Source: an uncultured bacterium
GTDB taxonomy: Bacteria > Planctomycetota > Phycisphaerae > Phycisphaerales > SM1A02
Assembly (NCBI GenBank): GCA_903898755.1
Contig: CAIUGT010000050.1
Location: 1-38,092 of the forward strand
Reading direction: 5' to 3'
DNA length: 38,092 nucleotides
The translations under genes and the position numbers were made by a program. Below the pieces are notes generated by a model. It searched no databases. It had not been told where the DNA came from and was given only the letters and a program-made list of their open reading frames with translations. Position 1 is the stretch's first letter. Each line of letters opens with the position of its first letter. Of this stretch, positions 28,599 to 31,223 are shown piece by piece.

Positions 28599-29846
28599 TC
28601 AACCCTCGGCGGCGACAGCGTCTGGACCAACCGTCGCTTGGCTCATGGTGGCGCGCCACGCGCCGGACATTCTTCGTTGAATCACATCGTTGACGCGTTC
28701 AAGCGTCCAACCCTCAAGGCTAGCGGTGAGTTCGGCCAGGGTTCGCGCCTTGCCGACACGATAGAGATCGCTTGTCATAGTGCTGGCTCGCGCCAAAGCG
28801 CTTTCGCCTTGCATAACCATGCGGCTTTTAAATCCAATTTTGGCACGGTCAAATTCAAGTTGATTGACGCCCGATTCAAAGCGAACAAGCTCGTCCATGA
28901 TGCACTTACTGGTTGTGGCGGCCCGTTGCGGAGTGCTGCCGGCGTAAATCTGTAGCACTCCGCGGTCGCGGCCGGTGGCGGCACTGGCGCCGACGCTGTA
29001 GCAAAGACCGCGTTTTTCCCGCACTTCCGTAAATAAACGACTGCTGGCTTCGCCGCCCAAGATCACCGAGGCAATGCGGAAGCCAAATGAATCAGGGTCG
29101 CTTTCTGTTGGCGCGTCAAAGGCGAACGCCATGTGGGTTTGCGAACTGGCAAGCGTGTAATGATCGACGCCGCCGCTGCGAGGACCAAAAGGTTTAGCCT
29201 CTACGTTTGTGCCGCCCCATGTGCCAAAAAGTTCCTTCAACTTTGGCATTGCATTTTCCGGTGATACCGCGCCGGCGATTGAAAGAATGGATCCTTGGGC
29301 AACCGCGCGTCGTTTCCACGCGGCTCTTAAATGTTCCGTGGTCAATGATTTCAAACCAGCTTCATCGCCATATCCAGTGCGATTGAATGGCGAGGGAAAA
29401 TGCAACTGAGCCAATCGCAACATGACAAGATGTTGCGGATCATCTGGCAACGCGTGCAACGCTTGCAATGAAAGTTGGCGAACGGGCTCCAAATGTTCCG
29501 GATCAATTCGCGGGCGCATGGCCATGTCCGCGACAAGTTCCAGCGAAGCGTTTAAGCGCGAAGCCAACATGGTTGCGGAAATTAAAACATGATTCGCATT
29601 GACGGTGGTGCTGCGTTCACAACCCAATGTGTCCATGGCATCACTGAATGCGCGGCTGTCACGAGTGCCAGAGCCGCGCACAATAAGCTCCGAAAGCAGC
29701 GTGCTTTCGCCTTCTCCAGCCGTTCCTTCAGGGTCGCCGGCGGTGCCCGCGGGAATGGCGAACGACAATGACGTGGTCGCCATTCCAGAGATTGGTTCAA
29801 ACGCCACGGTGAGTCCGTTGCTTAATTTTTCAGTGGTGATGCTCAT
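28599..29846 (-). CDS. M16-family peptidase-like protein lacking the HxxEH zinc site
   Basis: The 415-residue protein has both halves of an M16B peptidase fold. At the place of the zinc motif it reads GESTLLSELIVRG, so His, Glu and His are T49, S52 and E53. The second half keeps EVREKRGLCYSVGA with the Arg/Tyr pair used by the partner subunit of M16B enzymes. Its catalytic half is therefore probably inactive and it may need an active partner, which is not in the window. The ATG overlaps the dapB stop (ATGA). Confidence 0.88.
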   Translation of the reverse strand: MSITTEKLSNGLTVAFEPISGMATTSLSFAIPAGTAGDPEGTAGEGESTLLSELIVRGSGTRDSRAFSDAMDTLGCERSTTVNANHVLISATMLASRLNASLELVADMAMRPRIDPEHLEPVRQLSLQALHALPDDPQHLVMLRLAQLHFPSPFNRTGYGDEAGLKSLTTEHLRAAWKRRAVAQGSILSIAGAVSPENAMPKLKELFGTWGGTNVEAKPFGPRSGGVDHYTLASSQTHMAFAFDAPTESDPDSFGFRIASVILGGEASSRLFTEVREKRGLCYSVGASAATGRDRGVLQIYAGSTPQRAATTSKCIMDELVRFESGVNQLEFDRAKIGFKSRMVMQGESALARASTMTSDLYRVGKARTLAELTASLEGWTLERVNDVIQRRMSGAWRATMSQATVGPDAVAAEG

Positions 29847-30559
29847 GATTTGTTCGCTTTGAAGAGTAGATCAGAAAGCCATTCTTCGGCGGTGTGCATG
29901 CCGGCTGGTTGATGGCGTAGCCAATCCGCGATGCGGAGCGCGCCCACAGCAAACAGATCACGACTGAGCGCGCGATGCTCCAACGAAAGGATTTCATTCT
30001 CCATTTCAAATGTCACGCGATGATCGCCAACCACTTCGCCTTCGCGAATACTGTGAATGTTTGTGTTTGAAATCGTTGCGCCAGACTCACGCAACGCGTC
30101 CGCCAGCGTGATCGCGGTGCCAGAAGGAGAATCTTTTTTCCGCGTGTGATGTGTCTCGTGAATTGTGATTGAGGCCTGTGAACCTAAAATTGTGGTCGCA
30201 ACGGACGCCAAACGGGTCAAAATTGCGATTCCAAGTGAAGAATTTGAAATTTTTATTGTGGATATCTTTTGCGACGCATTTTGGATGGCCAAAACACTTT
30301 TTTCACTCAATCCAGTCGTTCCAACAAGCAACGCGGCGTTTAATTTTGTAGCAATCTCAACCGCGCGTCGCGCACCATCATCGGATGAAAAATCGACCAC
30401 AACATCCGTCTTTTCTGCTGATTCTGGAATGTGGTTCATCACGCACACAATGGAAATCGACGCAACTTTCGCGGCCGCATGTTGTATGGCCTTGCCCATT
30501 CTTCCATTGGCACCGACAAGCATAAGTTGGAGAGGTTTTGATGGTTGAAATGGTGTCAA
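29843..30559 (-). CDS. dapB: 4-hydroxy-tetrahydrodipicolinate reductase
   Basis: The 238-residue enzyme of the lysine/diaminopimelate pathway feeds peptidoglycan. It has the nucleotide loop LMLVGANGRMGKAI, VDFSSDDGA and the catalytic ETHHTRKKDSPSGTA segment (His-His and Lys). The start is a TTG at 30557-30559; the next ATG (residue 13) would cut into the first beta strand. It leads an operon with the M16-like protein and the 85-residue protein. It is divergent from the small-peptide transcription unit. Confidence 0.95.
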   Translation of the reverse strand: MTPFQPSKPLQLMLVGANGRMGKAIQHAAAKVASISIVCVMNHIPESAEKTDVVVDFSSDDGARRAVEIATKLNAALLVGTTGLSEKSVLAIQNASQKISTIKISNSSLGIAILTRLASVATTILGSQASITIHETHHTRKKDSPSGTAITLADALRESGATISNTNIHSIREGEVVGDHRVTFEMENEILSLEHRALSRDLFAVGALRIADWLRHQPAGMHTAEEWLSDLLFKANKS

Positions 30560-30604: not shown

Positions 30605-30633
30605 TTCACATTTCGTGTCGATAAAGGTACAAG
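30605..30633 (+). promoter_or_regulatory. Sigma-70-type promoter of the small-peptide gene
   Basis: The -35 TTCACA (5 of 6 matches) at 30605-30610 and the -10 TACAAG (4 of 6) at 30628-30633 are separated by exactly 17 bp. Transcription would start near 30640. Confidence 0.65.
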
Positions 30634-30640
30634 TATGTGC

Positions 30641-30691
30641 GGAGACGCTACTGTTACGCAGCGCCTCCTCACTCCGACAACCTAGCGTAAC
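30641..30691 (+). promoter_or_regulatory. Possible H-type pseudoknot leader
   Basis: Stem 1 pairs 30641-30649 with 30660-30668: eight pairs and one A-C mismatch. Its 10-nt loop contains GTTACGC (30653-30659), exactly complementary to GCGTAAC at 30685-30691. Together they form an H-type pseudoknot with loops of 3, 0 and 16 nt. The Shine-Dalgarno GGGAG begins five bases after it. An alternative pairing, ACGCTA (30644-30649) with TAGCGT (30683-30688), competes. The complementarity is visible in the sequence; the fold is inferred. Confidence 0.55.
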
Positions 30692-30707
30692 GCATGGGAG
30701 CCACACA

Positions 30708-30770
30708 ATGGCTAAGAAGAAGAAGGCTGCTAAGAAGAAGGCTGCTAAGAAGACCGCAAAGAAGCGCTAA
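30708..30770 (+). CDS. 20-residue Lys/Ala-rich basic peptide
   Basis: After Met-Ala the peptide has 11 Lys, 6 Ala in all, one Thr and a terminal Arg, arranged in KKAAKK units like the C-terminal tails of bacterial histone H1-like proteins. GGGAG lies seven bases before the ATG, a good ribosome site. The gene sits between a recognisable promoter and a very strong terminator, so a transcript of about 205 nt is expected. Nucleic-acid binding is inferred from charge only; a small ribosomal or nucleoid peptide is possible, or the RNA itself may be the functional product. Confidence 0.68.
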   Translation: MAKKKKAAKKKAAKKTAKKR

Positions 30771-30807
30771 TAGCGTTTCGGTCTGATTAGAACCTTACTG
30801 AACAGTT

Positions 30808-30845
30808 CCAAAAGAGTCGACTTTAAGTCGGCTCTTTTGGTTTTT
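30808..30845 (+). terminator. Very strong intrinsic terminator after the small-peptide gene
   Basis: A 15-bp stem (30808-30822 with 30826-30840, one G-U) with a 3-nt loop is followed by TTTTTATAT. Confidence 0.93.
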
Positions 30846-30959: not shown

Positions 30960-31223
30960 ATGGCCCATGTGATCGCTGAACCTTGTATTGCAACTAAAGA
31001 CGCATCTTGCGTCGAAGTCTGTCCCGTGGATTGCATTCATCCTGTGAAGGGCGCTGCAACATTCACCGACGCCACGCAGTTGTACATTGATCCAGAAACT
31101 TGCATTGACTGCGGACTCTGCGTGGACGAATGTCCCGTGCGAGCCATTTTCCCAAGCGAAGATTTGCCTGCGGAATGGCAGAAATACGTGCAAATTAACG
31201 CTGATTGGTTCAAGAAGAAATAA
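30960..31223 (+). CDS. 7Fe-type ferredoxin
   Basis: This is an 87-residue electron carrier. Cysteines C9, C17, C21 and C25 (C-x7-C-x3-C-x3-C) and C48, C51, C54 and C58 (C-x2-C-x2-C-x3-CP) match the arrangement in Azotobacter FdI. That predicts one [3Fe-4S] and one [4Fe-4S] cluster. It is monocistronic, preceded by a possible -10 and followed by a bidirectional terminator. Its redox partner is not in the window. Confidence 0.95.
   Translation: MAHVIAEPCIATKDASCVEVCPVDCIHPVKGAATFTDATQLYIDPETCIDCGLCVDECPVRAIFPSEDLPAEWQKYVQINADWFKKK
31000..31013. repeat. 14-bp dyad repeat, copy 2, inside ferredoxin
   Basis: Same 14 bases as 30863-30876, here preceded by G so the dyad extends to GACGCA-TCT-TGCGTC. 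It encodes part of the KDASCVE segment of ferredoxin. Confidence 0.8.

Follow-up and report, generated by a model that had tools for sequence, protein, structure and literature searches.

A short transcription unit in the planctomycete contig CAIUGT010000050.1 (Phycisphaerales; the whole stretch of 38,092 nt analysed here is termed the window) carries a leader that forms an H-type pseudoknot with covarying stems, displays an invariant CUCCGAC motif in its loop 3 and is linked to one type of gene, the peptide product of which is under selection. The preservation of this knotted leader by paired mutations points, at the level of sequence comparison, to a chromosome-packing protein under a form of RNA control that has not been described. 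We consider it fairly probable that the leader is a new cis-acting RNA on a single-gene operon, in which contact at CUCCGAC sets the translation of a histone H1-tail-like nucleoid peptide. Comparative evidence, decisively the covariation in 66 leaders, confirms that the locus is real and not a chance arrangement. On re-reading of the sequence, every part named in the original prediction, which had been made from the letters of the window, was present at the coordinates given there. The features are as follows, with the evidence for each in brackets:

30605-30633, + strand: promoter, TTCACA (30605-30610), 17 bp spacer and TACAAG (30628-30633) (sequence)
30641-30649, + strand: pseudoknot stem S1, 5′ strand, GGAGACGCT (covariation, strand-swap energies)
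30650-30652, + strand: loop L1, ACT (sequence; about 1-5 nt among relatives)
30653-30659, + strand: pseudoknot stem S2, 5′ strand, GTTACGC (100% pairing in 66 leaders)
30660-30668, + strand: pseudoknot stem S1, 3′ strand, AGCGCCTCC (covariation, strand-swap energies)
30669-30684, + strand: loop L3, 16 nt, including CTCCGAC (sequence)
30672-30678, + strand: loop-3 motif CTCCGAC (invariant in 66/66 leaders; order-wide 5′ of Lys-rich genes)
30685-30691, + strand: pseudoknot stem S2, 3′ strand, GCGTAAC (covariation)
30696-30700, + strand: Shine-Dalgarno (SD) sequence GGGAG (7 nt 5′ of the start codon)
30699-30713, + strand: possible start-codon hairpin, AGCCA-cacaa-TGGCT (stem statistics in relatives; suggestive only)
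30708-30770, + strand: ORF MAKKKKAAKKKAAKKTAKKR, histone-H1-tail-like peptide, ATG at 30708-30710 (in-frame relatives, synonymous bias)
30808-30845, + strand: intrinsic terminator, 15-bp stem (30808-30840) and T run (TTTTT) (terminator prediction)
29843-30559, - strand: dapB, divergent neighbour, fixed within the family (gene neighbourhood comparison)
30960-31223, + strand: ferredoxin gene, downstream neighbour, fixed within the family and frequent in the order (neighbourhood comparison)

Stem S1 of the window comprises eight pairs and one A·C mismatch over nine positions, while S2 (GTTACGC/GCGTAAC) is paired at 7/7 positions, in agreement with the fold first proposed, and the proportions are those of a classical H-type pseudoknot, with a loop 1 of 3 nt, no loop 2 and a loop 3 of 16 nt. 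The good ribosome site and the very strong 15-bp terminator that had been claimed are likewise borne out by GGGAG, 7 nt before the ATG, and by the stem that runs into TTTTT. The 17-bp spacing of the proposed promoter stands; its strength is weak (8/12 against the sigma-70 consensus, and absent from the output of a consensus scan), yet its -10 region, CGATAA-N-GGTACAA, is kept in relatives. This block (30618-30633) is common to much of the window's family and to family f4, while f5 and f6 instead have promoters with TTGAC-type -35 boxes and a predicted RNA start near AGCUCCGA. The fold of the whole unit is stabler than that of shuffled sequences (z -4.3), largely due to the terminator, and a terminator-like hairpin is found 3′ of the gene in 94 of 102 relatives, versus 17% of shuffles. 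The unit is a single-gene operon, and its reading as a stand-alone unit with its own transcription holds, with the addition that it lies inside a neighbourhood, divergent dapB on one side and ferredoxin on the other, that is fixed within the family.

Conservation of the pseudoknot was assessed with a leader covariance model, R1, that included the S1 pairs and from which the S2 pairs were absent. Matches at an E-value of 0.1 or better were obtained in 114 of the 181 genomes of the window's family, with a strong match in about 100 of them, from about 20 genera, nearly always once per genome and always leading the same gene, adjoining dapB/ferredoxin. Each of the 16 searched genomes of the window's genus has kept the locus, as have many of the family; the relatives, mostly MAGs, appear to be planktonic, largely freshwater Phycisphaerales-type Planctomycetota. 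In an alignment of 66 leaders to R1, S2 shows 100% pairing, which was not forced, as S2 was unpaired in the aligning model; some of these leaders are related, so that the counted cells do not represent independent events. Three of the seven pairs of S2 covary (UA to CG or GC, UA to CG, and AU to GC), and its variants include GTTACGC/GCGTAAC, GTCACGC/GCGTGAC, GCTACGC/GCGTAGC, GGTACGC/GCGTACC and GTTGCGC/GCGCAAC. All eight counted pairs of S1 covary in the same leaders, and 81% of their cells are paired even though the alignment is imperfect. Taken together, the two stems are paired in 89.7% of cells, with a covariation score of 0.48 versus 0.14 when shuffled, and pairing falls to 25-40% in a control in which the partners were slid by 1-3 columns. 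Furthermore, the native S1 duplex reaches -15.6 kcal/mol, compared to -9.2 kcal/mol for strands swapped between genomes. Without exception, the pseudoknot lies immediately upstream of the SD and ends 4-11 nt before it. The leader thus shares with H-type pseudoknot leaders both interleaved, covarying stems and a 5′UTR site beside the ribosome binding site, and in the homologs, when searched for compensating changes as the original prediction had proposed, pairing is retained through compensatory substitutions in S1 and S2 alike; the outcome named there as refuting the pseudoknot did not occur. By-eye reading suggests that the interleaved topology persists, in different sequence, in the divergent family members g19, g5, g49 and g52 as well. 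At two of these loci, L360 (G033, g19) and L354 (G019, g5), the Lys-rich gene before ferredoxin is kept, the exact CUCCGA is lost and the interleaved stems seem to be retained with new sequences.

The CUCCGAC of loop 3 is identical in 66/66 leaders, the SD of which reads GGAG in 51, GGAA in 11 and GGAT in four. A role for CUCC as an anti-SD in the window's family was rejected: the 15/66 leaders with GGAA/GGAU keep CUCC unchanged, and pairing with the SD is therefore not what conserves it. Rejected, too, was the pseudoknot as a uniform ON/OFF switch of SD accessibility, given that, with the pseudoknot strands set as occupied, comparison of the predicted accessibility in 79 leaders gave 12 opened and 20 closed. 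A GCCA or GUCA arm after the SD can pair with the UGGC of AUG-GCN in the window and in relatives, and a start-codon hairpin with a stem of at least four pairs is present in 79% of 143 leaders versus 34% of shuffles.

The conserved features, namely the leader near the SD, the exposed motif and the GCCA arm, converge on initiation, and from this we infer a translational operator. The pseudoknot would present CUCCGAC to a conserved partner, whether a protein, a small RNA or a metabolite, contact with which would set ribosome loading at the adjacent SD and start-codon hairpin, and the dose of the putatively DNA-binding peptide would thereby be matched to the state of the cell. The trigger may, tentatively, be a trans-acting protein or sRNA; feedback by the peptide itself is a somewhat doubtful candidate, while a small-molecule ligand, or the lack of any switch in a leader serving as a constitutive stabiliser or enhancer, are each rather unlikely. 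The few family members (g19 and g5) that keep the gene without the exact CUCCGAC count against this explanation, as do the inconsistent direction of the predicted SD accessibility and the loss of CUCC-SD pairing in leaders with GGAA/GGAU.

Elsewhere in the order no convincing match to R1 was found, and a class-level search with model R2 returned weak matches, the best at an E-value of 8e-5 (G348). In other families, the SD of the Lys-rich genes is preceded, at a distance of some 8-25 nt, by GCUCCGA(C). Of the order's 301 genomes, 111 contain the pattern CUCCGAC-SD-ATGGCNAAR, against very few matches in the control, while in the rest of the class the CUCCGAC-SD-MAK pattern is found near control counts. 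A general 5′UTR element of many genes was considered and rejected, a looser pattern giving few matches per genome, with numbers close to those of the control in several genomes. By these patterns, other families of this Phycisphaerales-type order share the gene and its CUCCGAC-SD core with the window's family, but not the pseudoknot. The Lys-rich gene is also located upstream of ferredoxin in several f2, f4 and f5 members; dapB was not found next to it at the f2, f4 and f5 loci examined.

The setting of the motif differs between these families. On reading of the f2 and f3 sequences, CUCCGAC appears in the loop of a hairpin with the SD in its stem, which MFE folds do not show clearly. By eye, the f2 leaders L330-L335 also have in common a UGUGGYGCUGC-like motif upstream and a hairpin, UCCUC/GAGGA, that involves the SD and encloses CUCCGAC. 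The 5′UTR GCUCCG of f5 and f6, along with an adjacent 5-8 nt, is complementary to a 3′UTR segment (the adjacent nucleotides and CGGAGC) just before the terminator. This adjacent helix differs in sequence between genomes and pairs in 11/11 loci (L225, L029, L220, L218, L228, L227, L248, L252, L222, L017 and L219), with -11.6 for native versus -7.1 for swapped segments; the GCUCC/GGAGC part served as the anchor of this local-segment swap test and is thus not independent. A swap test of global 5′-3′ duplexes was uninformative, owing to long forced duplexes, and the local segments were used instead. A 5′-3′ closed loop of the f5/f6 mRNA is possible. Furthermore, a 3′UTR hairpin with GCUCCGA in its loop (L225, L029, L220, L222, L228, L248, L249, L252 and L028), for which no credible Rfam match was found, could compete for CGGAGC as a second pseudoknot. 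It is quite conceivable, if short of probable, that an order-wide, undescribed RNA element consisting of CUCCGAC and SD-proximal structure controls the H1-tail-like nucleoid protein, with an architecture that differs by family: the window's family would use a local H-type pseudoknot, f2/f3 an SD hairpin that has CUCCGAC in its loop and f5/f6 a closed loop between 5′UTR and 3′UTR. If this reading is true, the element would be the first of a new kind of cis-regulatory RNA acting on bacterial chromatin.

A small-molecule riboswitch would make the leader an aptamer like the SAM-II and preQ1-type pseudoknots, with CUCCGAC and the conserved CGC/GCG of S2 as the pocket. The variable S1, the constant S2 end and loop 3, and the position before the SD are consistent with such an aptamer, and a lysine-related ligand is imaginable, as the gene, with dapB as its neighbour, constitutes a sink for lysine. 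The leader is, however, found once per genome and before one gene type only, which is unusual for riboswitches, CUCCGAC persists in other families without the window-type pseudoknot, and the missing dapB at the f2, f4 and f5 loci examined and the lack of an Rfam match further make this explanation improbable. Similarly low is the probability of control by a trans-acting sRNA that recognises the exposed CUCCGAC through a GUCGGAG-type seed and thereby alters initiation, by analogy with IhtA and Chlamydia hctA. A stretch of seven unpaired, invariant bases is well suited to a seed, one histone-like gene in a related phylum is controlled in this manner (IhtA; PMC4355289), and the CUCCG of f5/f6 is complementary to the CGGAGC of the 3′UTR, but a search of Rfam identified no candidate sRNA. 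A constitutive leader, in which the pseudoknot merely protects the 5′ end or raises translation, would fit the very short transcript, the strong terminator at most loci and the lack of consistent SD sequestration; we rate it no higher, since it does not explain an exact CUCCGAC in loop 3 while S1 changes freely.

The peptide governed by the proposed translational operator in the window is encoded by 20 codons, 11 of them for Lys and all of these AAG. A Lys-rich ORF of 16-161 aa follows the leader in frame in every relative, with one exception of seven codons, and the encoded peptides consist of 47% K, 22% A, 12% T and 12% R, with AAG making up 94% of the lysine codons. Among the short ORFs, the synonymous share of single-base codon differences is 0.80 versus 0.20 expected (uncorrected for transition bias and shared ancestry), and this excess argues that the peptide itself is kept by selection; a codon-position count without divergence control was uninformative, and the synonymous-fraction test was used in its stead. 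The Lys/Ala ORF noted at the outset is therefore a conserved gene with a strong synonymous bias, contrary to the lack of a conserved ORF named there as refuting the gene. The longest relative shows resemblance, below the cut-offs, to the Pfam HC2 (PF07382; E-value: 2.8e-5; 24.7 of 40 bits) and NCBIfam histone H1-like (NF038053; E-value: 2.6e-6; 27.8 of 80 bits) profiles, neither of which matches the 20-residue peptide of the window. This weak resemblance to Hc2-type proteins and the Lys/Ala/Thr/Arg composition support the histone-tail-like peptide first suggested, which is probably nucleic-acid-binding and, judged by its composition only, may bind and compact DNA. The product may be abundant and regulated, as the original prediction suggested. 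One ORF, L070 (G063), is cut to seven codons (MAAKKKK) behind an intact leader, through either real loss or assembly collapse of the repeat. MAG contigs often end inside the Lys-rich repeat (G002, G003, G017 and G062), and the gene is thus probably under-annotated in public genomes.

The original prediction had also offered a structured RNA as the product, with the ORF incidental or the RNA dual in function. The shortest peptides (16-20 aa) do occur in small-genome genera in which the leader is very well kept, and the L070 ORF retains seven codons, but purifying selection on the peptide, seen in the synonymous bias, and same-frame relatives of up to 161 aa render this alternative very unlikely. 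A lysine attenuator, with the Lys-rich ORF as a leader peptide controlling the terminator and a downstream gene, could draw on the 11 Lys in 20 codons, the terminator 3′ of the ORF and the nearby lysine gene dapB, but the length of the ORF and the order of the genes already refute it for the most part: homologous ORFs are far longer, dapB is divergent and the unit is followed by ferredoxin, with no lysine biosynthesis gene downstream on the transcript. It retains next to no probability.

Histone-H1-like proteins condense DNA in several bacteria, and the setting of their dose is known in few cases. A leader that is absent from Rfam, displays textbook covariation and precedes one such gene in about 100 genomes provides a direct experimental handle, while the order-wide CUCCGAC represents a specific bait for a partner search. 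With lengths between 16 and 161 residues, the peptide family furthermore tests the minimal size at which a histone-tail-like protein is kept.

The leaders of the window and of 10 relatives match no Rfam 15 covariance model at the gathering threshold, in line with the initial statement that no family of this design was known, and the open-access literature searched yielded no description of this leader. The SAM-II, SAM/SAH and preQ1 riboswitches are alike in being small H-type pseudoknots in the 5′UTR that end at or near the SD and have conserved loop bases; the present leader differs in that it matches nothing in Rfam 15, by sequence or by covariance, and precedes a single gene type. The Hc2/H1-like Lys-Ala repeat proteins (PF07382 and NF038053) share the low-complexity Lys/Ala/Thr/Arg repeats, whereas the longest relative falls below the curated cut-offs and the window peptide is much shorter and unmatched. 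In the autogenous leaders of S15 and the S4 alpha operon, the pseudoknot is close to the SD, and the gene it precedes encodes a basic protein that binds nucleic acids. The present leader resembles them in this position, in its basic, probably nucleic-acid-binding product and in its restriction to one gene type, and differs in that no rRNA mimicry was recognised; specific recognition of the leader by the peptide is doubtful, since the peptide is of low complexity and very variable in length. Translation of Chlamydia hctA (Hc1) is controlled by the sRNA IhtA, which base-pairs with 7 nt surrounding the AUG (PMC4355289). There, an sRNA acts at the AUG region, in contrast to the cis pseudoknot leader of the window, but in both systems, which belong to the PVC superphylum, a small, basic, histone-like protein appears to be controlled post-transcriptionally where its translation initiates (PMC4355289), and hctA/IhtA thus offers, by analogy rather than membership, an example of such control of a histone-like gene in the same superphylum.
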